From: Roseibium sediminicola
Lineage (GTDB): Bacteria; Pseudomonadota; Alphaproteobacteria; Rhizobiales; Stappiaceae
Assembly (NCBI RefSeq): GCF_023156505.1
Contig: NZ_JALNMJ010000027.1
Location: 1 to 64,000 of the forward strand
Length of the DNA stretch: 64,000 nucleotides
Reading direction: 5' to 3'
Shown here: positions 2,646 to 35,817 of the stretch, piece after piece
How the letters are laid out: each line of letters starts with the position of its first letter
How positions within the stretch are numbered: position 1 is the first letter of the stretch
Translations under genes and position numbers: made by a program
Notes under the pieces: generated by a model
Told to the model about the DNA's origin: nothing
Seen by the model: the letters and a program-made list of their open reading frames with translations, nothing else
Database searches by the model: none

Positions 2646-3040
2646 GATGGGGATCCTGGCGTGGCGGATTTCTTGGCGGGCACGCATCGGCGGCGGCCGT
2701 CTTCCCAGTTACCACGAAACCAGCCGGCCCGCGCGGGCGCTCCGGACGCCAGACAGGCCTGAAAACGTCCTCCCGGGTCATGAGGTGCGGGGCGGGCAGC
2801 GTTCAGGTGGGGGCGAGGGACGGGGGGCTTTGACGGCAACGGCCTGGACAAAATGCTCCGGCGGCCGGTCCGCCAGGTGGTTGCCTTGGCGGCAAACGCG
2901 GGCGGTTCAGCGGAGCAGGCGCCTGCCGGTCGATCCGGCGAGCTGCTTTCAAGGCGCGGGTTGTTGTCTGTCCGGTTGTCTTCCGGCCCCTCAAAGTCCT
3001 TCCGGGCTCTGGCGGAAAGCGGCCATCCGCCAGCCAGCCT
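2646..3040. other. 395-base gap without a supported gene
   Basis: Very GC-rich sequence between the SMR gene and the porin-like gene. Several overlapping open frames exist here on both strands, but all are low-complexity, rich in Arg, Pro and Gly and lack family features. No convincing RNA gene, terminator or repeat was seen. Confidence 0.5.
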
Positions 3041-3862: not shown

Positions 3863-4040
3863 TGAAACACCGTTCGTTCGAAAAGGGATCGATTCGCGTT
3901 ATTGGTGTGCCAGTTTATTGCCACTTATGGTTAATGAGGCGTGAAACCGCACCTGTGAAAAAGGACGATGCCAAGTTCCCGGTTCGGAAGCCGTGCCGGG
4001 AGCGAAGTGCTTGACGCAGAGGCAGAATTCAGGGCTGGCC

Positions 4041-10716: not shown

Positions 10717-11426
10717 TGCTGGAGATCCGGAACCTCACCGTCACCTACGGACTGCACAAGGCACTGCAAGGCGTCAGTCTGACGGCGGAAAAAGGCGAAG
10801 TGGTCGTCATCCTGGGCGCGAACGGGGCAGGCAAGAGTTCGCTCCTCAGGGCCATTGCCGGCATCAGCGAAGGCGATGTCGCTGGCGACGTTACGCTTGC
10901 CGGTGCATCACTGCGCTCCCTTGGTGCTGACCGGATTGTTGAGCAGGGCATTGCCTTCGTGCCGGAAGGCCGCGGCATTTTCGGCGATCTCAGCGTCTGG
11001 GAGAACCTGATGCTCGGAGCCTATCCGGAGCGCGCGCGGGCGCGCCGCAAGCAGAACCTGGAGCGGGTGGTGTCTCTCTTTCCGAAACTGGCGCAGCGGC
11101 GCGGACAGACGGTGCGCACCATGTCGGGCGGCGAACAGCAGATGGTGGCGATCGGCCGGGCGATCATGTCCAACCCAGACATCCTGATGCTGGACGAACC
11201 GTCCCTCGGCCTGTCGCCGCTGCTCTGCAGGGATCTCTTCGAAAACCTGTCGAAGATCCGCGAGACCGGCATCGGCGTGCTGCTGGTGGAGCAGAACGCC
11301 AAGCAGAGCCTTGCCATGGCCGACCGGGGCTACCTGATCGAGAACGGCCGGATCACCGGCGAGGGCCAGGCGGACGCGCTGCTCAGTGATCCGGCAGTGC
11401 AGAAGGCTTATCTGGGCGGGGTCTGA
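10716..11426 (+). CDS. ABC transporter ATP-binding protein, LivF class
   Basis: 236 residues with Walker A GANGAGKSS, signature MSGGEQQM, Walker B ILMLDEPSLGLSP and switch region LLVEQNAKQSL, which is characteristic of LivF proteins. The ATG at 10716 overlaps the TGA of the upstream gene (TGATG). It completes a five-component importer starting at 6424. No terminator is evident before the copper genes. Confidence 0.93.
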   Translation: MLEIRNLTVTYGLHKALQGVSLTAEKGEVVVILGANGAGKSSLLRAIAGISEGDVAGDVTLAGASLRSLGADRIVEQGIAFVPEGRGIFGDLSVWENLMLGAYPERARARRKQNLERVVSLFPKLAQRRGQTVRTMSGGEQQMVAIGRAIMSNPDILMLDEPSLGLSPLLCRDLFENLSKIRETGIGVLLVEQNAKQSLAMADRGYLIENGRITGEGQADALLSDPAVQKAYLGGV

Positions 11427-11457
11427 AGCGCCCTTTGCGTCTACGCAATTCCCCGTC

Positions 11458-11488
11458 TTGACCTTCCAGTGACTGGAGGTTCTATCTG
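11458..11488 (+). promoter_or_regulatory. CueR/MerR-type promoter of the copper operon
   Basis: A -35 box TTGACC (11458-11463) and a plausible -10 element TATCTG (11483-11488) are separated by 19 bases, the overlong spacer that MerR-family activators correct by twisting DNA. The spacer carries a dyad centred on 11471: GACCTTCCAGT-G-ACTGGAGGTTC, matching at 9 of 11 paired positions. The layout and the ACCTTCC half-site are close to known copA promoters. The -10 match is modest. Confidence 0.75.
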
Positions 11489-11524
11489 CAGGGTCAGCGA
11501 AACGCGATCAGAGCCGTCAGGACC

Positions 11525-13897
11525 ATGCAGGACACAGCAGATACCCCCAACGAAATCCAGCCGGAAGACAAGGTCCAAGACCCGGTCTGCGGCATGTCGG
11601 TCACGCTCGGCAAGGGCAAACCCTCGCTGACATACAAGGGCCGGGACTATCATTTCTGCAATCCCAAGTGCCACGACAAGTTCGAGGCGGACCCGTATTT
11701 CTACGTCTCCGGCAACAATAAGAAGAAAAAACAGCTGGAGGCGGAAAAGGACGCGGGCGGCGCGCTCTATACCTGTCCCATGGATCCGGAAATCGTCCAG
11801 GAAGGCCCCGGCACCTGCCCGATCTGCGGCATGGCCTTGGAGCCGATGAGCGGTGTTTCCGACGAGCCGAACCATGAACTGATCGATTTCACCCGCCGTC
11901 TCTGGGTCAGCGCGCTGGCGGCGATCCCGCTCCTGATCCTGACCATGGGGCCGATGCTGGGCGTGCCGATCCGCAGCTGGATCGGCGAAGGCGTCGCGAT
12001 CTATCTGGAAGCCATCCTGGCAACGCCCGTGGTGCTGTGGGCGGCGCTGCCGTTCTTCCAGCGTGGCTGGACCTCGCTGATCACCCGAAAATTCAACATG
12101 TGGACGCTGATCATGATCGGTGTCGGCGCGGCCTATCTCTATTCCATGGTGGCGGCCTTCCTGCCGTTCCTGTTTCCCGAAGCGCTCAAGAGCGAAACCG
12201 GTCACATGCCGGTCTATTTCGAGGCAGCGGTGGTGATCATCGCGCTGGTCTTTGTCGGCCAGGTGCTGGAGCTGAGGGCACGCGAGCGCACGGGCGACGC
12301 CATCCGGGCTTTGCTGGATCTGGCCCCCAAAACCGCACGGCGGATCACGCCGGAAGGCGATGAGTACGACGCGCCGCTGGAGAACATCCTGGCGGGCGAC
12401 CGGCTGCGGGTGCGGCCGGGCGAAGCGGTGCCGGTGGACGGCGAAGTGCTCGAGGGCGGCTCATCGGTGGATGAAAGCCTTGTCACAGGAGAACCGGTGC
12501 CGGTGGAGAAGAACCCGGGCGACACGGTCACCGGCGGCACGCTCAACAAGACCGGTTCCTTTGTCATGGAGGCCAGGCTGGTCGGTGCCGACACCATGCT
12601 GGCCAAGATCGTCGACATGGTTGCCTCGGCGCAGCGCTCGCGCGCGCCGATCCAGGGCCTGGCCGACAAGGTCGCCGGCTATTTCGTGCCGACTGTTGTC
12701 GGTGTCGCGATCCTTGCCTTTGTCGTCTGGTTGCTTGTCGGACCGAGCCCGGCTCTGGTCCATGCGATCATCGCGGCGGTCTCCGTCCTGATCATCGCCT
12801 GTCCCTGCGCGCTTGGCCTGGCGACGCCGATGTCGATCATGACGGCGACCGGACGTGGCGCCCAGGCGGGCGTCCTGGTCAAGACCGCGGAAGCGCTGGA
12901 GCGTCTCGCCTCGGTTGACACGATTGTCGTCGACAAGACCGGGACCCTGACGGAAGGCAGGCCGGTTGTCAGCGAGCTCGTCGCCGCAAAGGGTGTCTCC
13001 GAGGACGACCTGTTGCGGCTCGCAGGGGCCCTGGAAAAAGGCTCGGAGCATCCGCTGGCTGAATCCATCCTGGCGGAAGTCAACAAACACGGTCTCGACC
13101 TGCCGGATGCTTCGGGCTTCGAGGCGGTTACCGGCAAGGGCGTCCACGCCACAGTCGACGGTGCGGAGATCCTGTTCGGCAATGCCGATTTTGCCGCCGA
13201 CAGCGGTGCCGATCTCTCAAGCCTCAGGGATCGCGGCGAGGAGCTTGCCGAACTGGGCAAGACAGTCATGTATCTGGTCAAAAAGTCGGGCGGTACCGCA
13301 CAGCTGATGGGACTGATTGCCGTTGCCGATCCGGTCAAGGCAAATGCCAAGGCCGCCATCGGCGCCCTGCATGAGGACGGCATCAGGATCGTCATGGCGA
13401 CCGGCGACGCGCCGCGCACGGCCGAAGCCGTTGCCAGGGCGCTCGGCATTGACGAGGTGCGCGCGGGTGTCTTGCCGGAAGGCAAGAAACAGCTCATTGA
13501 AGACCTTAGGGCAAAGGGCAAAGTGGTCGCGATGGCGGGGGACGGCGTCAACGACGCCCCGGCGCTGGCGGCCGCCGATGTCGGCCTCGCCATGGGAACG
13601 GGCGCCGACGTTGCCGTGGAAAGTGCCGGTCTGACCCTTTTGAAAGGCGATCTGGAAGGGATCTTGCGGGCGCGGACGCTGGCGCGCGAGACCGTGCGCA
13701 ACATCCGCCAGAACCTGTTCTTCGCCTTTGTCTATAATGCGGTCGGTGTGCCGATTGCTGCCGGCATTCTCTACCCGGTCTTCGGCATCCTGTTGTCGCC
13801 GATGCTGGCGGCGGCGGCAATGAGCCTGTCGTCGGTGTCGGTGATCAGCAACGCGCTGCGGCTGCGCCGGCTGAAACTCGAAAGGGGCGGGGCATGA
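11525..13897 (+). CDS. copA: Copper-exporting P1B-type ATPase with YHS and heavy-metal-binding N-terminal domains
   Basis: Pumps Cu(I) out of the cytoplasm using ATP. Order of parts: a YHS domain (about 18-60, DPVCGMSV ... [12 protein letters not shown]), a Cys-rich metal-binding domain (about 81-108, YTCPMDPEI ... [10 protein letters not shown]), paired membrane helices, the actuator loop with VTGEPVP, the CPC metal site at Cys426-Pro-Cys428, phosphorylated Asp470 in DKTGT, an HP motif (SEHPLAE), the [10 protein letters not shown] hinge, and last helices with [11 protein letters not shown] and [12 protein letters not shown]. There is no classical HMA (GMTCxxC) domain. At 790 residues it is normal for the group. 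It overlaps cueR by ATGA and is preceded by a MerR-type promoter. Confidence 0.93.
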
Positions 13898-23180: not shown

Positions 23181-24194
23181 ATGACCGCGGACACACCGGT
23201 GACGTGCGACACAGGCAATTCCAGGGCACTGTGGTACACGGGCCCCGAGCAATGCGGGTTGGAGCAGGCGGCGGTCGCCGGCGTTAAGGCCGGCGAGGTC
23301 CTTGTCCGCTCGCTTTTCAGCGGCATCAGCCGCGGCACCGAAGGGCTTGTGTTCCGGGGAGAGGTTCCGATGAGCGAATGGCAGCGGATGCGCGCGCCCT
23401 TTCAGGCCGGCGACTTCCCGTTTCCCGTCAAATACGGTTACGCCAATGTCGGCGAGGTCCTGGAGGGCGACCCCGGACTTGCCGGTCGTATCGTTTTTTC
23501 GCTCTATCCGCATCAAAGCGTCTTTACTCTCCCGTCAGATGCCTGCGTTCCGCTTCCGGACGGTGTACCGGCCGAACGTGCTGTTCTGGCGGCCAATATG
23601 GAAACGGCACTTAACGCTTTATGGGACGGAAAACCATCACCTGGGGATCACATCTGCGTGGTCGGCGGTGGTGTCGTCGGCCTTTTGACCGCATACGTTG
23701 CCGGGCGGCTGCCTGGATCAAAAGTGACGCTGGTCGATCGATATCCCGGTCGTTCTGCCGTAGCGGAAGCTTTGGGGCTTGGTTTTGCCCTGCCGGAGGA
23801 CGCACCGCGCGACCAGGATCTTGTCTTTCATGCCAGCGCGACGTCCGCAGGGCTCGCCACCGCGCTGCAATGCGCCGGCGACGGTACCTCCGTCGTCGAG
23901 ATGAGCTGGTATGGGGCCAATGAGGTCCAGGTGCCGCTCGGCGCCGATTTCCATTGCCGCCGTCTCAAGCTGGTGTCCAGCCAGGTCGGAACCATTCCGG
24001 TCGAGCGGCAGGCGCGCTGGAGCTACCGCCGGCGCCTGGAAACGGCAATGACCCTGCTCTGCGATCCCGCACTGGATCGTCTGATCAGCCATCGCCTGCC
24101 TTTTGCCGACCTGCCGCAGCGCCTTCCCGAAGTGTTGAACAAAGCGTCAGATGTCTTGGCGGCCGTGGTCGTCTATGAACCGGAAAGCCACTGA
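23181..24194 (+). CDS. Medium-chain dehydrogenase/reductase (zinc-type alcohol dehydrogenase-like)
   Basis: 337 residues. An N-terminal GroES-like domain (GEVLVRSLFSGISRGTE, VKYGYANVGEVLEG) and a Rossmann domain with VVGGGVVGLLTAYVAGR fit the MDR superfamily. The classical catalytic zinc ligands (Cys-His pair and GHE) and the structural zinc Cys cluster are not evident, so it may be zinc-independent or bind a single ion differently. It is 48 bases ahead of a pterin-synthase-like gene and probably starts a five-gene unit. Substrate unknown. A divergent region of 98 bases separates it from opgH. Confidence 0.75.
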   Translation: MTADTPVTCDTGNSRALWYTGPEQCGLEQAAVAGVKAGEVLVRSLFSGISRGTEGLVFRGEVPMSEWQRMRAPFQAGDFPFPVKYGYANVGEVLEGDPGLAGRIVFSLYPHQSVFTLPSDACVPLPDGVPAERAVLAANMETALNALWDGKPSPGDHICVVGGGVVGLLTAYVAGRLPGSKVTLVDRYPGRSAVAEALGLGFALPEDAPRDQDLVFHASATSAGLATALQCAGDGTSVVEMSWYGANEVQVPLGADFHCRRLKLVSSQVGTIPVERQARWSYRRRLETAMTLLCDPALDRLISHRLPFADLPQRLPEVLNKASDVLAAVVVYEPESH

Positions 24195-24242
24195 CATCTC
24201 TGAACGACCCATCGAAGACCCAGTTATTTCAGGACGATAAGC

Positions 24243-24641
24243 ATGTTTGCAGTTGAAGTACGCGACCACGTGATGATTGCCCATTCCTTCAAGGGGGACC
24301 TGTTCGGTCCGGCCCAGGCCCTGCATGGCGCCACCTTTGTCATCGACGCGGCCTTCCTGGCCGAGAGCCTGGATGCCAACGGGGTTGTCATCGATATCGG
24401 CCGGGCGCACCAAGCCCTGAAGGAAGTGCTCGAGTCGCTCAATTACAAGAACCTCGATGAAGTTCCCGAATTTTCCGGCATCAACACCACGACCGAGTTC
24501 CTGACCAAACATGTCCACGATCACCTGGCTCAGGCGGCCCGGGACAACCGGCTGGGCCGGCCCGGCCCGGAGCTGGCCGCCATCCGCGTGACGATCTCCG
24601 AAAGTCATGTGGCGCGCGCCTGGTATGAAGCGGCGATCTGA
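24243..24641 (+). CDS. 6-pyruvoyl-tetrahydropterin synthase/QueD-family homologue with altered active site
   Basis: 132 residues of the T-fold PTPS/QueD family: FAVEVRDHVMIAHSFKGDLFGPAQALHGATF, DIGRAHQALKEVLE, LNYKNLDEVPEFSGINTTTEFL, and VTISESHVARAWYE (binding Glu). Canonical enzymes have Cys-x3-His-Gly-His; here His14 and His28 are kept, but the second His of HGH is Ala30 and the catalytic Cys position is Ala24. A different reaction or metal geometry is likely. Flanked by a dehydrogenase, a glycosyltransferase and a methyltransferase. Eight bases separate its stop from the next start. Confidence 0.8.
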   Translation: MFAVEVRDHVMIAHSFKGDLFGPAQALHGATFVIDAAFLAESLDANGVVIDIGRAHQALKEVLESLNYKNLDEVPEFSGINTTTEFLTKHVHDHLAQAARDNRLGRPGPELAAIRVTISESHVARAWYEAAI

Positions 24642-24648
24642 TCGGCCG

Positions 24649-25707
24649 ATGCCCTGCTTCTATTTTGCCTATCCGGGCGATCTGGACACGCCCACCGGCG
24701 GGTACGGCTACGACCGGCGCATCCTCGACGGGTTGCGCGCCCTCGGCTGGCGGGTGGAGCTGGTGCCGCTCGGCGACGGGTTTCCTTTTCCGAATGCCGG
24801 AACGATGACCGCCGCCGGCGACCGGCTTGCGGCGCTGCCGGATGACGCGCTTGTCGTTGTGGACGGGCTGGCCTATGGCGTTTTGGGAGAGGCCGCGGCT
24901 GCCCACGGCGACCGTCTCCGTCTGATCGCGCTTGTCCATCACCCCTTGTGCAAGGAAAACGGTCTCGACGAAGGCTCGGCAAGCGCACTGTTCAGAAGCG
25001 AGCAGGCAGCCTTGCAACATGTTCGGCATGTGATCGTGACCAGCCCGGCCACTGCCGCGCAGGTGCGGGAGCTGTTTGACGTTCCGAGCGGTCGGATCTC
25101 CACGATCCTGCCCGGTACAGACAAGCCGGAACCCTATCCGCGTTCGTCAGGCGAGTTGGTCAAGCTGCTATCTGTGGGCACGATCGTGCCGCGCAAGGGC
25201 TATGACCTGCTGTTCGAGGCCCTGGCAGAACTGGACGGACCGGATGCCGGCTGGCGCCTCGACATTGTCGGCGGGCTGGACGCCGATCCGGCCTGTTACG
25301 AGACCTTGCTGAAACAGGTGTCCGATCTCGGACTGGGGGCCAGGGTGACGTTTCACGGCGCCGTTCCGGCGGAGCGTCTGCCGGAGTTCTACCGCGCGGC
25401 GCATGTGTTTGTTCTGGCTAGCCGCTATGAGGGATACGGCATGGCCTATACCGAGGCGCTGGCCCATGGTCTGCCGGTGATCGGCAGCGGCGGCGGCGCG
25501 GTGCGCGACACCCTTCCGGAAGGGGCCGCGCTTTATTGCGGTACTGAAAATGTCGGGGCTCTGCGTAAGGCCCTGGAGCGGCTGATCTGTCATCCGCAGG
25601 AACGGGCAAAATTCGAAAAAGCAGCGAGAGTAGCCGCGCAAGGCTTGCCGAACTGGCAGGGCGCAGCGGCCGGTTTTGCCGAAATACTGAAAGGGGCCGG
25701 GAAATGA
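24649..25707 (+). CDS. Glycosyltransferase family 4 protein
   Basis: 352 residues with the GT-B fold: an N-terminal Gly-rich loop (TPTGGYGYDRRILDGLRALGW) and a C-terminal nucleotide-sugar site (LLSVGTIVPRKGYDLLFEAL, FVLASRYEGYGMAYTEALAHGLPVIG with the EX7E-type motif). The start at 24649 avoids the overlap produced by the frame opening at 24607. It likely adds a sugar to the product of the preceding pterin-like enzyme. It overlaps the next gene by ATGA. Confidence 0.87.
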   Translation: MPCFYFAYPGDLDTPTGGYGYDRRILDGLRALGWRVELVPLGDGFPFPNAGTMTAAGDRLAALPDDALVVVDGLAYGVLGEAAAAHGDRLRLIALVHHPLCKENGLDEGSASALFRSEQAALQHVRHVIVTSPATAAQVRELFDVPSGRISTILPGTDKPEPYPRSSGELVKLLSVGTIVPRKGYDLLFEALAELDGPDAGWRLDIVGGLDADPACYETLLKQVSDLGLGARVTFHGAVPAERLPEFYRAAHVFVLASRYEGYGMAYTEALAHGLPVIGSGGGAVRDTLPEGAALYCGTENVGALRKALERLICHPQERAKFEKAARVAAQGLPNWQGAAAGFAEILKGAGK

Positions 25708-26492
25708 GCGGGTTTTCGTCCGACTGGCTCGCCTTGCGCGAACCGCTCGATTTGGCAGCGCGCAACAGCGACGCGGAAATGGTATTCTTCGACGCGTTGC
25801 CTGAGGGTCCCGTCCGCATCCTGGATCTTGCCAGCGGCGCCGGGTCGACGGTCGCAGCCCTCACGTCGCGCCTCGGCCGGGCAGCGGACTGGCAGTTGAC
25901 CGACTATGATCCGGCGTTGCTGGCGATTGCTCAGAAGCGCTGGCCCGGTGTGATCGCGTGCCGCCGGATCGATCTTCAAACGGATCTGGAACAGTTGCCG
26001 TTCGACGATGTCGACGCAGTGACGACGTCCGCCTTTCTGGATCTTGTGTCGGCTCCGTTTCTGGAGCGGCTGGCCGGGCATGTGGTGTCCGCGCAAAAGC
26101 CGTTTCTCGCGAGCCTTACCTATGATGGCCGCACGAACTTCGAGCCCGCGCATCCGATGGACGAGACGCTGTTGACGGCGCTCAACCGGCATCAGCGCAC
26201 CGACAAGGGGTTTGGACCGGCCCTGGGACCCGAGGCGGCACAAACGGCGATATCCCTTTTTGAAGCCAAAGGCTGCCGTGTCGTGCAGGGTCACTCCGAC
26301 TGGGAGATCACGCCGGGGTCCTCCGGTTTCCTGATGGAGTTCCTCGGAGGTTGGCTTCGGGTCGGGCGGGAGCTGAAGCTGCCCGAGGACACTTTGCTGG
26401 ACTGGTGGCGTGACCGGGAGGCCATGATCCGCTCCGGGAAGCTCTCCATGAGTGTCGGTCACATCGATTTTGTTGCGCTGCCACCCGCTTGA
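25704..26492 (+). CDS. Class I SAM-dependent methyltransferase
   Basis: 262 residues. Seen: motif I ILDLASGAGSTVAAL (about 40-54), an acidic end of strand 2 (QLTDYDPALL), and DAVTTSAFLDLV as motif IV region. No further family signature. ATGA overlap with the glycosyltransferase gene shows translational coupling, so methylation of the same small molecule or glycoside is a reasonable inference. Confidence 0.8.
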   Translation: MSGFSSDWLALREPLDLAARNSDAEMVFFDALPEGPVRILDLASGAGSTVAALTSRLGRAADWQLTDYDPALLAIAQKRWPGVIACRRIDLQTDLEQLPFDDVDAVTTSAFLDLVSAPFLERLAGHVVSAQKPFLASLTYDGRTNFEPAHPMDETLLTALNRHQRTDKGFGPALGPEAAQTAISLFEAKGCRVVQGHSDWEITPGSSGFLMEFLGGWLRVGRELKLPEDTLLDWWRDREAMIRSGKLSMSVGHIDFVALPPA

Positions 26493-26563
26493 AGTGGCTT
26501 GCAGGCTTGTTCAATTTGCCGAGCCTGCCTAGGATAGTGGCCTTCGGGAGAGGAGAGGCGCGC

Positions 26564-27094
26564 ATGGCGGACGTCAACGAACGCTATAGCCTGATTGCTC
26601 GGTCGATCCATTGGTTGACGGCGCTCATGGTGCTGACCATGGTGCCTGCCGGTCTGATCATGATCCGCATCGGCGGCGGCAGTCTTCAGAACCAGCTGTT
26701 CGACTTCCACCGCTCGGTCGGTATCGTGCTGATGGTCCTGACCGTTCTGCGTCTTGCCTACCGGCTCACGCACCCGCCCGCGCCTCTTCCGGACAGCATG
26801 CCCGGCTGGCAGAAATTTGCCGCCAAGGCCACACATGTCTTCCTCTATGGCTTTTTGCTGGTCAATCCGTTCCTCGGCTGGTTGGCGACATCCGCCTATG
26901 GTGCGAAGATCTCGGTCTTTGGCCTGTTCACCATGCCGGAAATCATCGCCAAGGACCGCGTGTTGTCCGAACAGCTGTTCCAGATCCATCTGGTTCTGGG
27001 CCTGCTTTTCACCGCGGCTGTCCTGATGCACATCGGAGCGGCACTCTATCACGGTCTCATTCGCCGTGACGGTGTCCTAAGCCGCATGATATGA
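26564..27094 (+). CDS. Cytochrome b561-type di-haem membrane protein
   Basis: 176 residues with four membrane helices and paired haem-ligand histidines: ARSIHWLTALMVL (helix 1), FDFHRSVGIVLMVL (helix 2), THVFLYGFLLVNP (helix 3) and QIHLVLGLLFTAAVLMHIGAALYH (helix 4). It belongs to the bacterial b561 family that moves electrons between quinol and periplasmic partners. The start at 26564 follows GAGAGGAGAGG. It follows the methyltransferase by 71 bases and may or may not share its role. Confidence 0.87.
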   Translation: MADVNERYSLIARSIHWLTALMVLTMVPAGLIMIRIGGGSLQNQLFDFHRSVGIVLMVLTVLRLAYRLTHPPAPLPDSMPGWQKFAAKATHVFLYGFLLVNPFLGWLATSAYGAKISVFGLFTMPEIIAKDRVLSEQLFQIHLVLGLLFTAAVLMHIGAALYHGLIRRDGVLSRMI

Positions 27095-27309: not shown

Positions 27310-27558
27310 ATGAAACAGACCATTCGGACCCTCCTGGCAAAACACGGCAACCTGCCTGTCTCGATCGAAGACGTCGCCGACGGCGCCGATCTCTACGACA
27401 CGGGCCTGTCCTCCTTCGCGTCTGTGCAGGTGATGCTGGCTCTGGAAGAGGAGTTCGACATCGAGTTCCCGGAACATCTCCTGAACCGCAAATCCTTTTC
27501 CTCCGTCGAGGCAATCGAAGCGGCTCTGACCGAGATCCTCGAAGACCAGGCAGCCTGA
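27310..27558 (+). CDS. Acyl carrier protein (aminoacyl-accepting type)
   Basis: 82 residues, acidic, four-helix carrier fold. The phosphopantetheine attachment site lies in DTGLSSFASVQ: Ser35 (second Ser) is the probable modified residue, in place of the usual DSL. ALEEEFDIEFPEHLLNRKSFSSV is typical of carriers partnered with amino acid:carrier-protein ligases. Three bases separate it from the acyl-CoA dehydrogenase gene. It probably holds an amino acid or its derivative as a thioester. Confidence 0.88.
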   Translation: MKQTIRTLLAKHGNLPVSIEDVADGADLYDTGLSSFASVQVMLALEEEFDIEFPEHLLNRKSFSSVEAIEAALTEILEDQAA

Positions 27559-27561
27559 TCC

Positions 27562-28743
27562 ATGACCGCTGCAGCCAAGATCACGGCGCTGGGCCTGGCC
27601 GAGCGCGCGAAACGCGCGGCCAAGGCCGCCACTGAGTTTGCCGATCGGGTCGATGTCGAAGGCAGGTTCCCGGCCGAAGGCATGGAGGCCCTGAAATCCG
27701 AACGTCTGATGGGCATCATGATCCGCCCGGAATTCGGAGGAGAAGGCGCCAGTCTGACCGAGGTTGCCGATGTCTGCGCCATCCTCGGCCAGGCCTGTGC
27801 AGCCACCGCGATGACCTACGCCATGCACCAGATCCAGATCGCCAGCTTGGCCGATTATGCCGTTGGCAGCGCCTGGCACGAGGCGTTTCAGCGCCGGATC
27901 TGTGCCGAGCAGCTGCTGATCGCCTCCGCCACCAGCGAGGCCGGCATCGGCGGCAATCTGCGCAATTCGCTTTGCGCAATCGAGGTTGACGGCGACACCG
28001 CGCGGCTTACCAAGGATGCCACCGTGATTTCCTATGGCGCCAATGCGGATGCCATCATGGTGACCTCGCGCCGCCATCCGGACGCAGCCCATTCCGATCA
28101 GGTCGCTACGATCTTCCTGAAGGACCAGTATACGCTCGAGCAGACCAGCAAATGGGATACGCTCGGCATGCGCGGCACCTGTTCCGACGGCTACATCTTC
28201 AAGGCCGAAGCGCCGGCCGAACAGATCCTGCCGCGTCCGTTTGCCGAAATCGCCGCGCAGTCCATGCTTGCCGTCTCGCACCTCCTGTGGGGTTCGCTGT
28301 GGTATGGCATTGCCGCGGACGCCGTTGCCCGCGCCCAGAGCTTCGTGAAGGCAGCCGCGCGCAAGTCGCCCGGCCAGGTGCCCCCTGGCGCGCTGCGTCT
28401 GGCGGAAGCCTCCAGCCTGTTGCAGCTGGTCAAGGCCAATGTGGTCGCTGGCCTGAAACAGTTCGAAGGCTGCAAGGGCGACAGCGATGCGCTGAACGCG
28501 ATGAGCTTTTCGGTGGCCATGAACAACATCAAGATCGGCACCTCGCAGACCATCCTCGAGATCATCAATCACTGCATGCTGATCTGCGGAATCGCCGGAT
28601 ACAAGAACGGCACGCCGTTCAGTCTCGGCCGCCATCTGCGCGACGCCCATTCGGCACAGCTGATGATTTCCAACGACCGGATCCTCGGCAATACGTCGAC
28701 AATGCTTTTGGTCAACAAGCAAGACACGAGCCTTTTGGGGTGA
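27562..28743 (+). CDS. Acyl-CoA dehydrogenase-family flavoprotein
   Basis: 393 residues with ACAD fold segments: [48 protein letters not shown] (FAD/substrate loop), [17 protein letters not shown] and a C-terminal [32 protein letters not shown] cannot place the catalytic glutamate of true acyl-CoA dehydrogenases with confidence. Beside a carrier protein and its loading ligase, it likely oxidises or hydroxylates a carrier-bound aminoacyl group, as in some peptide synthetase pathways. The stop overlaps the next start (TGATG). Confidence 0.8.
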
Positions 28744-29654
28744 TGATGGACGCGCAGGTTTCCTTTCTCGATCAGTTGTTCAATGAAGGCGTTTTGCATG
28801 ACAGCGGCGTGGACGGGCTCTATGCCCGCAGCGGCGAATTTGAGGACGTCATCGCCCGCTTTGAAAAATTCGCCCTGACCTATGGCCAGGACGAGATTTC
28901 CGAAGCCATGGTGTTCCCGCCGGGCATGACGATGCAGGACTTCGAAACCAGCGGCTACATGAAGAGTTTTCCGCAGCTGGCCGGTACCGTCCACGCCTTT
29001 TGCGGCAACGATCACGACCATATGGGCCTGCTGCAATGCATGGCCGCCGGTGACGACTGGTCGGAACATCAGAAACCAACCCAGGTGGCGCTGACGCCGG
29101 CCGCCTGCTATCCGCTCTACCCGATCCTGTCGCGGCGCGGACAGCTTCCCGCCGATGGCGCCTATGTCGCCCTGCAGTCCTACTGCTTCCGGCATGAGCC
29201 CTCCAAGGACCCTGCCCGGATGCAGATGTTCCGCCAGCGCGAATATGTCCGGGTCGGCTCCGCCGAGCAGACCATGGCCTTCCGGGAAACCTGGAAAGAG
29301 CGTGGCCAGGACATGATGAAGCGCCTGGAACTGCCCCATCATGTCGACGTCGCCAACGATCCGTTTTTCGGCCGGGCCGGCAAGATCATGGCGTCCGGCC
29401 AGAGGGAACAGGAACTGAAGTTCGAGATGCTGGTGCCGATCACGTCGGAGGAAAATCCGACGGCCTGCATGAGCTTCAACTACCACATGGACAATTTCGG
29501 CAAGGCCTGGAACATCCGCCAGGCCGACGGCGAACCCGCTCACACCGCCTGCGTCGGCTTTGGCCTGGAGCGGCTGGCGCTCGCCCTGTTCCGGCATCAT
29601 GGTTTCGACACCTCGAAATGGCCGGACGGCGTCCGCGCGACGCTTTGGGGCTGA
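28743..29654 (+). CDS. Amino acid:[carrier protein] ligase (class II tRNA-synthetase homologue)
   Basis: 303 residues, resembling atypical seryl-tRNA synthetases without a tRNA-binding domain. These enzymes activate an amino acid with ATP and load it on the phosphopantetheine of a carrier protein. Seen: motif 2 [20 protein letters not shown] (163-182), motif 3 [12 protein letters not shown] (272-283), and the expected zinc ligands Cys122 (AACYPLYP), Glu167 and Cys270 (HTACVGFG). The nearest described relatives are the rhizobial aa:CP ligases that load glycine or alanine; specificity here is unknown. A longer frame from 28152 is an artefact; the ATG at 28743 overlaps the previous stop. The carrier lies two genes upstream. 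Confidence 0.88.
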
Positions 29655-29667
29655 GGGAAAACGCTTG

Positions 29668-30693
29668 ATGACTGAAGCCGTCTTCGACCGCCTCAGCGCG
29701 GCCAGCTACGTGCGCAGCCCGCTCCATTCCCAGGAGCGGGACTGGCCGGAAACCAATTGTTATCTCGACGTCTGGATCGAGCTGCTGCCGTCCCTCGGCC
29801 TGCCGCCGGAAGCCTGTCTTGCCTATTCGGTCACCCAGGATTTCGAGGGCGACCAGTTCACCTTCTTCAAGGTGCCGCTGGAGGACCTGGAAGCGCTCTA
29901 CGGGCTGAAGGTCACGGAGCTGGCGATTTATGACCGGGTCGAGACCCACGTCCAGCAGCAGATCGGGCGGGGCCGGGTTTCCCTGGTCGAGGTCGACAGC
30001 TATTTCCTGCCGGACACGCAGGGCGTCGGTTATCACGAGGCCCATGGCAAGACCACGATCGCGGTCAACCGGATGGATTTCGAGGCACGCACCATGGAAT
30101 ATTTCCATGGCCTTGGCCTGCACCGTCTGGAAGGTGACGATTTCGACGGCATCTTCCAGCGCGGAGCGCATGCGCAGCCTTTGCCGTTCCTGCCCTATAC
30201 CGAATTCGTGAAGTTTCCGGAGGTTCTGCCGACGCCAGAGCATATTCTCTCGGTGTCCGAAGACCTGCTGCGCCATCACCTCAAGCGCCGCCCCGCCGAC
30301 AACCCGATCGCGGCTTTCGCAAGCGTGTTCCCGGCTCAGGTGGAAAAGGTCAGCGAACGCGACTTCGGCTTCTTCCACCTTTACGCCTTCAACACGCTGC
30401 GCCAGCTCGGCGCGAATTTCGAGCTGTTCTCCGCCTATCTGGACTGGCTCGCAGGACAGGGGCGTTCAGAGCTTGCTGAAGGCGTGGACCTGGCCAAGAC
30501 CATCTCGTCGACGTGCAAGATGGTCCAGTTCAAGCTCGCCCGTGCGGTGATGCGCAAGAAGTTCCAGGGCCTGGATGAGGGCCTGAACCCGGCCGTCGAG
30601 GCCTGGGACAACCTGATGCAGCTTTTGGATCGCCATTACGGTCAGGATCAGAAGCCCCGCTTTGCCCCCGTCGTCAGCGCCGCCGGGGCATGA
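29668..30693 (+). CDS. DUF1839-family protein, partner of the aminoacyl-carrier system
   Basis: 341 residues. I recognise the DUF1839 group, which recurs beside amino acid:carrier-protein ligases, but no function is established. Seen: a conserved N-terminal HSQERDWPETNCYLDVWIELL with a Cys (TNCY), FEGDQFTFFKVPLEDLEALYG, and EVDSYFLPDTQGVGYHEAHGKTTIAV, which resembles a papain-like or transglutaminase-like Cys...His arrangement (Cys31 and the later His); that reading is speculative. It could release or transfer the carrier-bound aminoacyl group. Fourteen bases follow the ligase gene. Confidence 0.75.
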   Translation: MTEAVFDRLSAASYVRSPLHSQERDWPETNCYLDVWIELLPSLGLPPEACLAYSVTQDFEGDQFTFFKVPLEDLEALYGLKVTELAIYDRVETHVQQQIGRGRVSLVEVDSYFLPDTQGVGYHEAHGKTTIAVNRMDFEARTMEYFHGLGLHRLEGDDFDGIFQRGAHAQPLPFLPYTEFVKFPEVLPTPEHILSVSEDLLRHHLKRRPADNPIAAFASVFPAQVEKVSERDFGFFHLYAFNTLRQLGANFELFSAYLDWLAGQGRSELAEGVDLAKTISSTCKMVQFKLARAVMRKKFQGLDEGLNPAVEAWDNLMQLLDRHYGQDQKPRFAPVVSAAGA

Positions 30694-30935: not shown

Positions 30936-33413
30936 ATGATCGATCTGTCCGGAATAAACTGGACGCTGTCGGTAACCGAAGCAGGCGCTTTCGGCTCACC
31001 GCTGGTCACGGGGCATCAATGGGACTTCGTGCCGGCGGCCGTGCCCGGAACCGTTGCCGGTGCGCTTGCCGAGGCGGGCCGGTTCGATCCGGACGCGCCC
31101 ACCCCGCTGCATGACAAGGACGTCTGGTACGAGGGCTGGTTCGAGGCCGAACCTGGAGCCTATCGCCTGTGTCTCGACGGCCTCGCGACCATTGCCGAAG
31201 TCTATCTGAACGATGTCCTGGTGCTCGACAGCCGCAACATGTTCCGGCGCCACGAGAGACCGGTCGAGCTTCAGGGCAACAACGTTCTGAAACTCTGTTT
31301 CCGCGCCCTGGCACCGCATCTGAATGCCAAGGGATCGCGCGCCCGCTGGAAACCGCAGCTGGCCACCTCGCAAGGGTTGCGCCTGATCCGCACGACCCTG
31401 CTCGGTCACATGCCCGGCTGGTGTCCGGAAATTCATGCGGTCGGTCCCTACCGGCCGATCCGGATCGAACCGGCGGACCGTCCGCGGATTTCAGAAAAGA
31501 CCATTCTTGCCGATTTGGCGCCGGACGGCAGTGCGTCCTTGAGCGTTTCGGTCCGGCTCGAAAATATCGGCGCCGTGCCCGTCCTGTCCTGTGCCGGCAC
31601 CTCTGCGGAAATGGCCTTGCAGGAGGATGGTTCCTTCGCCGCGACGTTGCGTCCGGGCACCGTGACGCCGTGGATGCCGCACACGCATGGCACAGCGGCG
31701 CTTTACGAGGTGACCATCGACGCCGGTGGCGACCAGTTTTGTCTCGGCAGGACCGGCTTCCGCCGGCTGGAGACGGATGCGGGCGAAGACGGCAAGGGCT
31801 TTGGCCTCAAGGTCAATGGCGTCCCTGTCTTCTGCCGCGGCGCGGTCTGGACCAGTGCCGATCTTCTGGGGCTGTCTGGAGACGCCGAGATCTACCGGCC
31901 GCTGCTTGAAGCCGCCCGCGACGCCGGCATGAACATGCTGCGCATCGGCGGCACCATGCTCTATGAGACAAGGGCCTTTTTCGAGCTTTGTGACGAACTC
32001 GGGTTGCTCGTCTGGCAGGACTTCCAATTCGCCAATTACGACTACCCCGTCAAGGACGAGGCCTTTGTTGCGGAAGTCGAGGCCGAAATCCGCGACCAGC
32101 TCGCGATCTCCATGGGCTGCCCGTCGCTGGCCGTTCTGTGCGGTGGCAGCGAGATCTACCAGCAGGGCGCCATGATGGGCCTCCCCGAGGAGCGCTGGAA
32201 GGGACCGCTTTGCGAGGAAATCCTGCCGGCTCTGGCAACGGACCTGAGGCCGGACGTACCCTATGCTCCGAATTCGCCCTCTGGCGGTGTGCTGCCGTTC
32301 TCGCCCAATGAAGGCATTGCCCATTATTACGGCGTCGGCGCCTACCTGAGACCGCTGGAAGACGCCCGCAGGGCGGAGGTCCGGTTCGCGGGTGAATGCC
32401 TGGCCTTTTCCAATATTCCCGATCGGCAAAGTCTTGATGAACACCTGCCGGTCAAGCCGGTCCATGACCCGCGTTGGAAAGCACGGGTGCCGCGCGACCG
32501 CGGTGCGGGCTGGGACTTCGAGGACGTGCGCGATCACTATCTGAAAACGCTCTATGACGTTGAGCCCGCAGACCTGCGCTATGGCGATCCGGACCGCTAT
32601 CTGGATCTTGGGCGGGCGGTAACGGGCGAGGTCATGGAAAAGACCTTTGCCGAATGGCGCCGGCCGGGATCGCCCTGCCAGGGCGCTCTGGTCTGGACCT
32701 TCCAGGACCTGGCGCCGGGGGCGGGCTGGGGCGTGATCGATGCCGGCGGCCAGTCCAAACCGGCTTATTATGCGCTCAAACGCGCTTTCCGGCCGCTTCA
32801 GTTGGCTCTCACCGACGAGGGCACCAACGGCCTTGCCGTTCATGTTCTTAATGACGGTCCCGAGGAGAGAGCGGTCACGCTGTCGCTGACCTGCCTGCGC
32901 GATGGCCAGGTGCCGGTGGTGTCTGGCAAGATTGATCTGGCGCTTGCGCCGCACAGCGCCCGGACGCTGAATGCTGTTGAGCTGATCGGCGCCTTTTTCG
33001 ACGTCACCTATGCCTATCGCTTCGGTCCGTTGTCCCATGATGTCACGGTGGTCGAGCTGAGAGACCAGGGAAGCGGAGACCTGATCGCGGACGCCTATCA
33101 CCTGACCGGGAGCGGCCTGTCGCCGATGCATTTCGACCTGCCCGATATCGAGCTCAGGCCGGACGCGGCTGGCGGCTGGCTGTTGTGTCTGGCCGCGCGG
33201 CGGTTTCTGCAATCGGTGTCCTTGTCCATTCCCGGATTTCAGCCAGAGGACAACGGCTTCCACCTGGCACCCGGGATTGCTAAACAAATCGGGCTGAAGC
33301 GCAGCCTGTGTTGCGAGCCGTCGACCGCGCCGGCAGGTGTGCTGCGAGCCCTGAACCTGCGCGGTCAGGCCAGTTTCAAACCGACTGAATCAAGTGACCG
33401 GGAACCAAGCTGA
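30936..33413 (+). CDS. Glycoside hydrolase family 2 protein (beta-mannosidase-like)
   Basis: 825 residues without an evident signal peptide, so probably cytoplasmic. A sugar-binding domain (WYEGWFEAEPGAYRLCLDGL, EVYLNDVLVLDSRNMFRRHE), an immunoglobulin-like domain and the catalytic TIM barrel are in GH2 order. Probable acid/base is Glu406 in VLCGGSEIYQQG; probable nucleophile is Glu487 in FAGECLAFSNIP. The motifs fit beta-mannosidases (GNNE/EFG pattern) loosely. It may trim or recycle the locus's oligosaccharide. The start at 30936 (MIDLSGINW) follows GAAAGGG; the TTG nine codons upstream is unlikely. Confidence 0.8.
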   Translation: MIDLSGINWTLSVTEAGAFGSPLVTGHQWDFVPAAVPGTVAGALAEAGRFDPDAPTPLHDKDVWYEGWFEAEPGAYRLCLDGLATIAEVYLNDVLVLDSRNMFRRHERPVELQGNNVLKLCFRALAPHLNAKGSRARWKPQLATSQGLRLIRTTLLGHMPGWCPEIHAVGPYRPIRIEPADRPRISEKTILADLAPDGSASLSVSVRLENIGAVPVLSCAGTSAEMALQEDGSFAATLRPGTVTPWMPHTHGTAALYEVTIDAGGDQFCLGRTGFRRLETDAGEDGKGFGLKVNGVPVFCRGAVWTSADLLGLSGDAEIYRPLLEAARDAGMNMLRIGGTMLYETRAFFELCDELGLLVWQDFQFANYDYPVKDEAFVAEVEAEIRDQLAISMGCPSLAVLCGGSEIYQQGAMMGLPEERWKGPLCEEILPALATDLRPDVPYAPNSPSGGVLPFSPNEGIAHYYGVGAYLRPLEDARRAEVRFAGECLAFSNIPDRQSLDEHLPVKPVHDPRWKARVPRDRGAGWDFEDVRDHYLKTLYDVEPADLRYGDPDRYLDLGRAVTGEVMEKTFAEWRRPGSPCQGALVWTFQDLAPGAGWGVIDAGGQSKPAYYALKRAFRPLQLALTDEGTNGLAVHVLNDGPEERAVTLSLTCLRDGQVPVVSGKIDLALAPHSARTLNAVELIGAFFDVTYAYRFGPLSHDVTVVELRDQGSGDLIADAYHLTGSGLSPMHFDLPDIELRPDAAGGWLLCLAARRFLQSVSLSIPGFQPEDNGFHLAPGIAKQIGLKRSLCCEPSTAPAGVLRALNLRGQASFKPTESSDREPS

Positions 33414-33414
33414 C

Positions 33415-34479
33415 ATGACATTTCCGTCGAAGGGACCATCTCGGGTCACCATGCAGATCAACACCTATCCGCTGGATCTGCCGCATTTTGAAGCGACTCT
33501 GGACCACAAGATGCGCACTTTCGGGTCTCAGGTGGACAGGACCATCGTCACCGTCGACGTGCGGCCGCCTCAGTCCGGCCGCTACAAGGGTGACCCGAAA
33601 GCCAATCGGTACATGCACAGCCTGGAGACCTTCCGCGGGCTCTACCCCATTCTCGAAGACCGCTACGAGAACCTCTCCTTTCACGAAGTGGATTATAGCG
33701 CGGCGGAAAAGGCCAAGGTGTCGAAATATTTCCTCGGCTCGGAGGAAATGCCGGACAAGGCCTGGGACGGTGGCCCGTTCTATTGCTACTTCCAGGGTAT
33801 TCTGGATGCGGACAGCGACTATGTGCTGCATATGGATGCCGACATGCTGTTCGGTGGCCAGAGCCAGACCTGGGTGGAGGAATCCATCGCCTTGCTGCAG
33901 CAGCGCGAAGACCTGCTCTTCACCAGCCCGTTGCCCGGGCCGCCCGATCCCGGCGGTCTGAAGGGAAAACATGAGGGTGCCGATCACGCCTTTGACGAGG
34001 ACACTGTCGACGGCCGTCTGGCCTATCGCTTCCACTTTGTCAGCACGCGTGTCTTTCTCATGGACATGAAGCGCTTCAAGGCGCTGGTCGGCACGCTGCA
34101 CCTAGACACGCCGCCATTGACCTATCGCTTGCGCGGCAAGCTGCTCGGCAATCCGATCAAGGCACTCAGCGCGGAACAGGTGCTGAGCCTGACCCTGCAG
34201 AGACACAAGCTTGGCAACATGTGTTTCGAGGGGGCAGGGGACGGCATGTATTCACTGCATCCGCCGTTCCATTTTCCGGCGCTTCACGCCGCGCTTCCCG
34301 ACTTGATCGAACGGATCGAGCAAGGGGATATCCCGGACGGACAACGCGGCGACTATGACATCAACGACAGTCTGTTTGACATGTCGGAGGCTCGCCAGCA
34401 GCATGCGCGCCACAGGCGCATCAAGAGGCGGTTGAAGGATTTCATTGCCTATTGGAGCGCGCGGCTGAAAGTCTCCTGA
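33415..34479 (+). CDS. Putative GT-A-fold glycosyltransferase
   Basis: 354 residues. The middle has a DxD-type motif, YVLHMDADMLFGG (about 136-148), and PFYCYFQGILDADSDYV; a C-terminal basic region (RRIKRRLKDF) may contact membrane or partner. No signal peptide or membrane helix. I do not recognise a specific family. It starts one base after the GH2 stop, so both are co-translated, and it belongs to the same polysaccharide locus. Confidence 0.6.
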   Translation: MTFPSKGPSRVTMQINTYPLDLPHFEATLDHKMRTFGSQVDRTIVTVDVRPPQSGRYKGDPKANRYMHSLETFRGLYPILEDRYENLSFHEVDYSAAEKAKVSKYFLGSEEMPDKAWDGGPFYCYFQGILDADSDYVLHMDADMLFGGQSQTWVEESIALLQQREDLLFTSPLPGPPDPGGLKGKHEGADHAFDEDTVDGRLAYRFHFVSTRVFLMDMKRFKALVGTLHLDTPPLTYRLRGKLLGNPIKALSAEQVLSLTLQRHKLGNMCFEGAGDGMYSLHPPFHFPALHAALPDLIERIEQGDIPDGQRGDYDINDSLFDMSEARQQHARHRRIKRRLKDFIAYWSARLKVS

Positions 34480-34497: not shown

Positions 34498-35817
34498 CTA
34501 TGGGGTGCCGGGGCTGCTGGGTTTCGCGCTGACCTGTGACCTCTTGCGCCCGATCAGCCCCCAGGTCAGCGCAACGATGCATGCCTGCAGCGCCATGCGT
34601 GACAGCACGGCCCCTTCCAGGCCACCAAGGTCACAGCCGACCCAGACCACGCCGACAATGACGAAATTCGACAGGAACACGAGGATCACCCGAGTTCCTT
34701 GCATGCCGATGGAGCGCATGATGTCCGCGCCGATACCCGCTGCGCCGAGCAACAGCGGATAAGCTGCAAGCAGGCGGATGAGCCCGATCGCCGGCTCATA
34801 TTCGCTGCCAAGCAGGAAAGGCACGTAGCCGGCTATGAGGATGATGAAGACGGCAACGGCAATTCCCAGTCCCGAAATCACCGGCAGAACGCGCAGTCCG
34901 AAGGCAATGCCGTGTTCGGCGCCCTTGTCGGCATGGCGGAAATAGCGGGTATAGGTGGCGTATAGCGCGGCCTTGATCGGTGTCGTAGCCGCATCGATGA
35001 TTCGGAAGGCGGCGGTATAGATACCGGCCTGGACAGGGCCAAGCAGTTGCACCACGACCGGCTTGTCGAGGTCGCGTATGCCGGACACGGAGGTGAACTC
35101 GAGGCTGAGCAGAAAGCCCTGCCTGAACTCGAAACCGGAAAAGACGGGCCGGGGCAGACCGTAGTCTTTCAACACCATCATCAGCGAGACGCCCGAGGCC
35201 AGCAGGCTGGCACAGACATACCACATCGCCCAGGTATCCAGATCAACCGTGTCGGCCGTCAGCGTGAGCGCCGCGACTGCCAGGAACCTGAGGATCATGA
35301 TGGCATTGTCGACCGCAAACTGCTTTCCGGCCCGGTCATGCGCCATATAGGTTGCCGAGCACAGAAACGAGATTTTCCGGAAAATACACTCCGCCGCCAG
35401 GATGCACAGCAACCCGAAAAAGCTGAAGGTCCCCGTGTCGAGGAAGTAGAATACGCCGAAGGCAAACACGATTGCCGGCACGAAAGTCATCAGCATCATG
35501 GCAAGCGCGCGGCCGAAATAGCGTGCAAAAGCATCCTTGTCGACCGCCAGTCTCTGGATTAGCAAGTGGTCGCTGCCCAGGCCGACAAAGACGCTGACCA
35601 TCAGGGCAATGGCCGACACGCTGGCAAAAATGCCGTAGCCGCCCGGACCGAGCGCACGGCTGATCAGTGCGAAGAAGCCGAACTGGGTGAGGATCTGCAG
35701 ACCGAAATTGATGCCGTAAAAGACAGTATTGCGCACTACCGGCTGGGCGCTGACCTCGCGAATTTTTTCGATCATGCCGGACGGTTTGCGCGGGTGCTGC
35801 TCTGTCTCGTCACGCAC
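34498..35817 (-). CDS. Oligosaccharide flippase / polysaccharide transporter (MOP superfamily, Wzx-like)
   Basis: 439 residues with about twelve membrane helices. N-terminal family segment: NTVFYGINFGLQILTQFGFFALISRALGPGGYGIFASVSAI; later FGRALAMMLMTFVPAIVFAF and PIKAALYATYTRYFRHADKG. It moves lipid-linked repeat units across the inner membrane. It converges with the glycosyltransferase gene (18-base gap) and is divergent from the polysaccharide deacetylase gene. An internal start at 35775 is possible. Confidence 0.85.
   Translation of the reverse strand: MRDETEQHPRKPSGMIEKIREVSAQPVVRNTVFYGINFGLQILTQFGFFALISRALGPGGYGIFASVSAIALMVSVFVGLGSDHLLIQRLAVDKDAFARYFGRALAMMLMTFVPAIVFAFGVFYFLDTGTFSFFGLLCILAAECIFRKISFLCSATYMAHDRAGKQFAVDNAIMILRFLAVAALTLTADTVDLDTWAMWYVCASLLASGVSLMMVLKDYGLPRPVFSGFEFRQGFLLSLEFTSVSGIRDLDKPVVVQLLGPVQAGIYTAAFRIIDAATTPIKAALYATYTRYFRHADKGAEHGIAFGLRVLPVISGLGIAVAVFIILIAGYVPFLLGSEYEPAIGLIRLLAAYPLLLGAAGIGADIMRSIGMQGTRVILVFLSNFVIVGVVWVGCDLGGLEGAVLSRMALQACIVALTWGLIGRKRSQVSAKPSSPGTP

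Follow-up and report, generated by a model that had tools for sequence, protein, structure and literature searches.

The window analysed in this study is a stretch of 64,000 nucleotides from Roseibium sediminicola (NCBI RefSeq assembly GCF_023156505.1, contig NZ_JALNMJ010000027.1, positions 1 to 64,000), read on the forward strand, and the system in question is a set of genes beginning at position 27310 that encodes a carrier protein, a flavoprotein, an amino acid:carrier-protein ligase, a protein of the family DUF1839 and a glycosidase. The gene set is widespread in bacteria, and it appears to load an amino acid on a small carrier, oxidise it and hand it to a sugar. This is a real, conserved and functionally coherent gene set, and one that has been published as a prediction. 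A sequence-only reading of the window, produced by a model, had described the first four genes as a coupled module at the head of a polysaccharide locus. These four genes are real and exactly placed, as open frames on the plus strand with a profile match for each; the unit is nevertheless larger than was proposed, and the glycoside hydrolase family 2 (GH2) gene at 30936–33413 belongs to it. The genes of the unit and its frequent partner are as follows.

27310..27558, + strand: aminoacyl carrier protein (ACP), Atu2571-like, 82 aa; PP-binding, phosphopantetheine motif GLSS
27562..28743, + strand: flavoprotein with acyl-CoA dehydrogenase (ACAD) fold, 393 aa; Acyl-CoA_dh_N
28743..29654, + strand: amino acid:carrier-protein ligase, class II, seryl-tRNA synthetase (SerRS)-like, 303 aa; NF005479
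29668..30693, + strand: DUF1839 protein, 341 aa, predicted papain-like fold plus helical bundle; PF08893, 430.8 bits
30936..33413, + strand: GH2 beta-mannosidase-like protein, fifth gene of the unit; PF22666
37797..39608, + strand: tandem alpha/beta hydrolase, 603 aa, frequent partner of the unit; PF00561, two stretches

The first four open frames are spaced by 3, −1 and 13 nt, the ligase start overlapping the ACAD stop by 1 nt. The source genome (6.35 Mb) holds one DUF1839 match and one match to this ligase, and among the named contigs searched the DUF1839 protein is closest to copies from Stappia, Labrenzia and Roseibium (up to 85%).

Conservation and distribution of the gene unit

A total of 100 DUF1839 loci were pooled from 20 genome stretches and from the 80 best among at least 576 confirmed named contigs; the two sets share some genomes, and a number of contigs break off early. 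Dereplication at 88% identity, applied to loci of 13 kb or longer, left 52, and a 57-locus set, mostly with about 10 kb on either side of each locus, was formed from these and five near-duplicates retained for matching to controls. In tblastn searches, relatives of the ACP, ACAD, ligase and GH2 proteins were present in 98, 98, 96 and 99 of the 100 pooled loci, respectively; after dereplication, ACP, ACAD and GH2 were each found in all 52 loci and the ligase in 49. The conserved unit therefore consists of ACP, ACAD-like flavoprotein, ligase, DUF1839 and GH2, often accompanied by the tandem alpha/beta hydrolase, whose cluster occurs in 35 of the 52 loci. Core gene order is fixed across loci, and GH2 starts no more than 400 nt 3′ of DUF1839 in 50/52. 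Loci from Rhizobiales, Azospirillum and Burkholderiales share this order, so the arrangement is not due to chance.

Plasmid records with a match numbered 59, of which six were inspected, one of these being without annotation. A Rhizobium gallicum plasmid carries the same five genes in the same order, and plasmids of Azospirillum lipoferum, A. argentinense and Mycetohabitans carry six genes including the hydrolase. One module copy in R. leguminosarum is fragmentary and lies beside a transposase gene. In the R. gallicum plasmid pRGM101a (12334–18506 of the locus L132), the module stands directly 3′ of nif genes (nifHDK, nifNX and fdxB) and of a gene annotated as an exopolysaccharide production repressor.

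Among 398 genomes drawn from the phylum, 16 carried DUF1839 and 44 a member of the ligase family. The close ligase type (at least 56% identity) coincided exactly with the 16 DUF1839 genomes, a second type (43–49%) occurred in 12 further genomes, and only distant relatives (29–36%) were found in 16, of which five were inspected and 11 set aside. Presence is also patchy within the genus, with the module in 12 of 24 other same-genus genomes. Loci of the second ligase type were fetched for 8 of the 12 genomes; an ACAD gene lay directly upstream in all eight and a divergent ACP in seven, and neither DUF1839 nor GH2 was matched in these eight stretches. The ACP, ACAD and ligase triad thus also occurs without DUF1839 and resembles a donor module, for which DUF1839 and GH2 would be one outlet.

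The neighbours of these second-type triads (L174–L181) vary and include a 290-aa protein, an AMP-binding protein with a short-chain dehydrogenase/reductase, and a cupin. The 290-aa protein, encoded just 3′ of the ligase in 3/8 loci with a fourth relative further off, looked acetyltransferase-like by eye; the one copy tested had no Pfam or NCBIfam match, and this assignment was dropped.

Carrier protein and ligase

The ACP has close relatives in PDB, namely 4h2w chain C and 2jq4 (Atu2571), at E values of about 5e-26, and its Ser35, the second serine of the GLSS motif, is kept in 99/99 sequences. The ligase matched NCBIfam NF005479 'amino acid--[acyl-carrier-protein] ligase' with 495.7 bits against a cut-off of 357, and its PDB relatives 4h2w and 3mey (Bll0957) were retrieved at E 6e-90 and 1e-87. 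The residues Cys122, Glu167 and Cys270 (numbered from the ATG at 28743), named in the sequence-only reading as zinc ligands, read C/E/C in all 96 aligned ligases and are candidate zinc ligands. A dedicated ACP is encoded two genes upstream of the ligase in the window.

Three Roseibium loci (L057, L058 and L063) have no ligase gene between ACAD and DUF1839, and in them ACP, ACAD, DUF1839 and GH2 are free of stops in the matched stretches. No ligase of this family was found elsewhere in these three genomes at E 1e-5 (completeness is stated for one, at 99%), other loader families not having been searched. In a tree of ACAD, DUF1839 and GH2, the ligase-less loci fall in three places: L057 groups with L053 (support 100), L058 with L056 (85), and L063 stands apart. 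Ratios of nonsynonymous to synonymous change (pN/pS) between the ligase-less loci and the window did not rise above the range seen for five ligase-bearing relatives, a weak test because synonymous divergence (dS) is near saturation. Either these genomes have a second loader, or the module has been retained for some other reason.

One genome with a distant ligase relative (G296) contains a natural-product-like locus (L187, 4734–13634), in which an amino acid:carrier-protein-ligase-like protein (29%) lies 1.4 kb from a BtrH_N protein with a MatE gene between them; ATP-grasp, class III aminotransferase, carbamoyltransferase and ketosynthase genes are nearby.

Modelled fold and predicted active site of DUF1839

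An AlphaFold2 model of DUF1839 with a mean pLDDT of 84.1 was obtained from an alignment of 34 sequences, five rows whose matches ran through a stop having been dropped. Ranks 1–19 of a Foldseek search with this model were occupied only by chains of the AziU2-U3 complex, CtaG and CcbD. By VIA-align the model matched CcbD with Z 20.0 and rmsd 3.4 over 291 of 342 residues at 9–11% identity; an AziU2-U3 complex chain followed at Z 17.3 and CtaG at 16.2, and the first unrelated entry scored 8.6. PeiR and Lpg2622, which we take to be papain-like, scored 6.6 and 6.5. The model matches the CcbD-type layout of a papain-like domain followed by a C-terminal helical domain. CcbD and LmbD couple a carrier-bound amino acid to an amino sugar as an amide via an acyl-cysteine, and CcbD transfers carrier-bound proline to the amino sugar by a ping-pong Cys-His-Glu mechanism, according to the accessible part of a 2025 review (PMC12945683). 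The accessible part of a 2023 survey (PMC10318531) placed DUF1839 among the papain-like families and proposed a C(T/S)H triad.

Residue numbers of DUF1839 follow the alignment and are one less when counted from the ATG at 29668. Conservation is nearly complete for Cys32 (100/101), His148 (101/101), Asp111 (101/101) and His127 (99/101, with Asn in two). Cys-less copies were found at L033 4736–5665, L047 9482–10408 and L137 23397–24323, in which Gln or Arg replaces Cys32, Thr131 is also changed and both histidines are kept. These copies lie in the ligase operon of Cupriavidus campinensis and two other genomes, each of which carries a Cys-bearing copy elsewhere. The joint change of positions 32 and 131 fits the proposed Cys-Thr/Ser-His triad. 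From the modelled fold, DUF1839 is predicted to be a CcbD-like aminoacyl-carrier-protein acyltransferase.

The flavoprotein

The position of the glutamate in the ACAD C-terminal motif is Ile369 in 99/99 flavoproteins, and the alternative position 239 in helix G is Ser, Ala or Cys in 99/99. These two positions presumably carry the catalytic base of ACADs, as in the medium-chain acyl-CoA and isovaleryl-CoA dehydrogenases. Among ACADs of the source genome, all 10 usable rows have an acidic residue, Glu or Asp, at one or other of these positions; one of the 11 rows (L191, a wrong-frame open reading frame) and an extra row (L137, with a stop inside) were left out. In PDB sequence searches, ranks 1–3 and 5 were KijD3/nitrososynthase chains, with E values from 3e-14 to 8e-11. 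Because both known ACAD catalytic glutamates are missing, oxygenation of the carrier-bound aminoacyl group appears likelier than desaturation, though this is contested by the matches weighed below, and the flavoprotein is probably an oxygenase or oxidase acting on that group. The oxidised derivative suggested in the sequence-only reading would more likely be an oxygenated product than a dehydrogenated one.

GH2 and the tandem hydrolase

The closest PDB relatives of the GH2 protein are the beta-mannosidases 5n6u and 2vjx/2je8. Two glutamates, placed by alignment to these enzymes and presumed to act as acid/base and nucleophile, are each kept in 99/99 sequences. The NE motif before the acid/base reads SE, with Ser in 97/99 and Asn in 2/99, a replacement that may reflect an unusual sugar at the site of cleavage. 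A crude hydropathy check found an N-terminus that is not strongly hydrophobic and no obvious signal peptide; the protein is probably cytosolic.

The tandem hydrolase matched hydr1_PEP and hydr2_PEP (exosortase-A-associated hydrolases 1 and 2) with its two domains, both below cut-off, and in sequence it resembles a fusion of the two. Exosortase clusters also carry an ACP and a ligase. The gene was found near the unit in 43/57 loci and in 0/20 control stretches (tblastn), in many loci directly 3′ of GH2 on either strand.

Polysaccharide genes around the unit

The following features of the window lie 3′ of GH2, outside the conserved unit.

33394..34479, + strand: accessory open reading frame, 361 aa, glycosyltransferase-like by eye (YVLHMDADMLF); no Pfam match
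34498..35817, − strand: Wzx-type flippase; PF13440/PF01943
36057..36737, + strand: polysaccharide deacetylase; PF01522
36743..37846, − strand: GT2 glycosyltransferase, true start probably internal to the open frame; PF00535
40179..49370, both strands: GMC oxidoreductase (−), Wzz/GNVR (−), Wzy (−), GH5 (−), GT4 (−) and WecG-type transferase (+)

The accessory frame overlaps the 3′ end of GH2 by 20 nt and has a relative in 2/100 loci (tblastn). The glycan genes span about 33.4–49.4 kb on both strands, so that they adjoin the module as neighbours and do not form one operon with it. Upstream, at 23181–27094, an oxidoreductase, a GT4, a methyltransferase and a cytochrome b561 have relatives near the module in 8–19 of 100 loci at more than 60% coverage, largely in Roseibium relatives.

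Glycan genes were searched for with a panel of flippase, chain-length, polymerase, transferase and deacetylase proteins, and the 20 control stretches included 19 from contigs of matched loci. Panel genes were detected in 35/57 module loci and, within the matched set, in 8/19 loci versus 0/20 controls (Fisher p 0.0012); these enrichment figures are indicative, since some of the panel proteins came from the tested loci, which favours them, and the loci are related by descent. No panel gene was found in 22/57 loci within the sampled stretch. The Wzx, deacetylase and GT2 proteins of the window were matched in 9, 9 and 14 of the 100 loci, the GT2 over more than 60% of its length in eight. No Wzx/Wzy-type cluster is annotated in the plasmid loci of A. 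lipoferum, A. argentinense and Mycetohabitans, whose gene tables are incomplete; a GT9 gene lies within 15 kb in A. argentinense, and an ArnT-like transferase and a lipoteichoic acid (LTA) synthase within 15 kb in Mycetohabitans. In the Mycetohabitans megaplasmid (L136), an annotated 4-amino-L-arabinose lipid A transferase occupies 2390–4219, some 8 kb 5′ of the unit, and the gene directly before the ACP encodes an Acyl_transf_3 acyltransferase (11052–12293).

The association between the module and polysaccharide genes is real but not obligatory. The sequence-only reading had proposed that a carrier-bound amino acid or an oxidised derivative decorates an exported polysaccharide, and had suggested checking this by co-occurrence. 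A hand-over to sugar is supported by the CcbD fold and the enrichment of glycan genes, and GH2, itself a glycosidase, is present in every dereplicated locus; the link to polysaccharide assembly is weakened, on the criterion which that reading itself had set, by the loci lacking panel genes and by the three plasmid loci, and decoration of a polysaccharide by the module is plausible but not general.

Proposed pathway and alternative explanations

We place somewhat more belief than doubt in the reading that this operon makes and spends an aminoacyl-ACP donor without ribosome, tRNA or non-ribosomal peptide synthetase (NRPS), and that DUF1839 passes the acyl group to a sugar amine. The SerRS-like ligase would activate a small amino acid and load it on holo-ACP; carrier loading has reportedly been demonstrated for relatives of the ligase. 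The ACAD-fold flavoenzyme would then oxidise the tethered aminoacyl group, most likely by oxygenation in view of the missing dehydrogenase base. DUF1839 would take up the acyl group on Cys32, with His148 and Thr131 as further active-site residues, and pass it to a sugar amine as CcbD does in celesticetin biosynthesis, as its fold, residues and operon suggest. GH2 and the tandem hydrolase may finally trim or proof-read the glycoside, which is the weakest step. In R. sediminicola a precursor of the polysaccharide of the adjacent Wzx/Wzy genes is a plausible acceptor; in other bacteria the product may be a separate glycoconjugate. The ligase and BtrH_N pairing in G296 supports this pathway, as one case only.

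Several observations weigh against this reading. DUF1839 is at most one of several outlets, given that a related triad exists without it, and the retention of the other genes in the three ligase-less Roseibium means that loading is not always performed by this ligase. Amino sugar synthesis is not encoded by any of the five genes of the unit, and about half of the 30 flanking clusters were identified. The reported triad orders differ (Cys-Thr/Ser-His in DUF1839, Cys-His-Glu in CcbD), and His127 is another candidate. A phmmer search of DUF1839 against PDB gave four unconvincing matches at E up to 1, and a DUF1839 profile run against the sequences in PDB with a limit of E 10 retrieved a single chance-level match of 43 residues to a cysteine protease (E 0.38) and no CcbD-type chain. 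Comparison with 12 BtrH_N proteins by hhalign reached a probability of 3.9% (five column-shuffled controls 0.1–0.4%, ACAD 0.1%), and Pfam at E 0.001 gave no BtrH_N (PF14399) match in DUF1839, the source genome having none. Sequence-level homology of DUF1839 to solved proteins was rejected on the phmmer, profile and hhalign results; as these methods reveal no BtrH_N link, it is the fold, the active site and the operon that support the assignment. For the flavoprotein, butyryl-CoA dehydrogenase ranks fourth among PDB sequences, the FadE16 acyl-CoA dehydrogenase family comes first among 13 NCBIfam matches (92 bits, far under its cut-off of 600), the ACAD C-terminal domain is recognised in 38/39 members at E up to 1, and a fold search with its model gives Z ties between oxygenases and dehydrogenases.

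A possible, though doubtful, account of the same genes is that its product is a small diffusible molecule, either a glycoside or an aminoacyl natural product, which GH2 and the hydrolase release or activate in the manner of butirosin deprotection. The six-gene cassette in two Azospirillum species and Mycetohabitans without a Wzx/Wzy-type cluster, the 22 loci free of panel genes, and the patchy presence within genus and phylum (12/24 and 16/398) would suit such a product, as would the fold relatives CcbD, AziU2-U3 and CtaG, the latter two presumably being natural-product enzymes like the first. Against it stand the glycan-assembly genes in most loci and their absence from the controls, the lack of an exporter or sugar-nucleotide gene in the invariant unit, and the GT9, ArnT-like and LTA-synthase genes that flank two of the three plasmid loci just mentioned. 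Rather unlikely is a true dehydrogenase that would leave a dehydro-amino acid on the carrier, as RedW and PigA do with prolyl-peptidyl carrier protein. It draws on the Z ties, the FadE16 match, the weaker matches to RedW and PigA (all of these NCBIfam matches being below cut-off), the C-terminal domain, and the fold match to ColB1, which dehydrogenates carrier-bound cysteine (Z 36.1); yet both glutamate positions are replaced in every flavoprotein, unlike in the usable ACADs of the source genome, and the top three PDB sequence relatives are KijD3/nitrososynthase chains.

It is improbable that DUF1839 is a hydrolase, either an editing thioesterase or a peptidase, with transfer left to another protein such as the tandem hydrolase. 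The papain-like fold and the frequency of the tandem hydrolase near the unit are compatible with this arrangement, and a CcbD-type fold alone is no proof of transfer; however, the match to CcbD extends over both domains and far exceeds those to PeiR and Lpg2622, and the tandem hydrolase gene was not found near 14/57 loci. Non-ribosomal peptide synthesis, a proposal attributed to the 2010 ligase paper in the accessible part of PMC2922099, would account for a carrier loaded by a tRNA-synthetase homologue, but it is highly improbable for an invariant unit that has no condensation, elongation or second adenylation gene and includes a glycosidase in 52/52 dereplicated loci.

Returning to the aminoacyl-ACP donor pathway, an unlikely but more specific form of it can be formulated, in which a translation-derived, NRPS-free route would N- or C-oxygenate ACP-tethered glycine or alanine and link it to a sugar as an amide through DUF1839, a new acyltransferase family with a permuted Cys-Thr/Ser-His triad and sometimes a Cys-less partner, a second ligase also charging the carrier. 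Such a second ligase would explain the three separate absences of the amino acid:carrier-protein ligase. If DUF1839 is an acyltransferase, root-associated and marine-type bacteria would thereby produce aminoacyl glycoconjugates of a new kind, and, if the more specific form is true, an oxidised aminoacyl group of this type on bacterial glycoconjugates has not been described before. What amino acid:carrier-protein ligases are for has been a standing question since 2010, and the likely hand-over enzyme can now be named.

Comparison with known systems

The sequence-only reading had presented the module as the best candidate in the window for an undescribed system, which does not hold. In a 2010 note in proof (PMC2922099, Biol Direct), in the part accessible, the ligase was associated with an ACP, a redox enzyme, a glycosidase, liposaccharide genes and the conserved open reading frame Atu2574. 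The product predicted there was a cell-surface amino sugar bearing an amino acid as an amide, with Atu2574 as the enzyme that forms the amide and with monooxygenation. We infer from operon order that Atu2574 is the DUF1839 protein, and we treat the module as a member of the system predicted at that time. The biological role of amino acid:carrier-protein ligases was still called unknown in the accessible part of a 2022 review (PMC9437257), and Atu2573 is named only as a co-expression hub in that of PMC11941606. No experimental study of this operon was found among the papers listed in searches of open-licence literature.

As far as the accessible text of PMC2922099 goes, that operon and the present unit share the ACP, redox enzyme, SerRS-like ligase, conserved open reading frame and glycosidase. 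They differ in that the redox enzyme was called a Rossmann-fold protein there and has an ACAD fold here, and in that the open reading frame was given neither structure nor active site in the main text, whereas here it is tied to the CcbD fold and its polysaccharide link is not obligatory. CcbD and LmbD, as partly described in the sources, share with DUF1839 the papain-like domain, C-terminal helices and catalytic cysteine, and act on a carrier-protein substrate; in lincosamide biosynthesis the carrier is loaded by the adenylation domain LmbC (PMC4351081, in part), whereas an aminoacyl-tRNA synthetase-like ligase is encoded here. The 2023 papain-like survey (PMC10318531), in its accessible part, guessed at glycan processing and an acyl-CoA-dependent role, while the donor proposed here is a dedicated ACP. 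New in this study are the DUF1839–CcbD fold match, the flavoprotein without the known ACAD glutamates, the three ligase-less Roseibium branches, and the Cys-less DUF1839 copies beside Cys-bearing ones.

The butirosin side-chain pathway, in the partial accounts available, likewise combines an ACP-borne amino acid (BtrI and BtrJ), a flavin monooxygenase (BtrO) and a papain-like ACP:aminoglycoside acyltransferase (BtrH). It uses other ligase and oxygenase families than the module, whose DUF1839 has no BtrH_N match and whose unit has no decarboxylase. The nitrososynthases KijD3, ORF36 and DnmZ resemble the flavoprotein in PDB sequence; they act on dTDP-amino sugars, whereas the substrate of the flavoprotein is likely ACP-bound.

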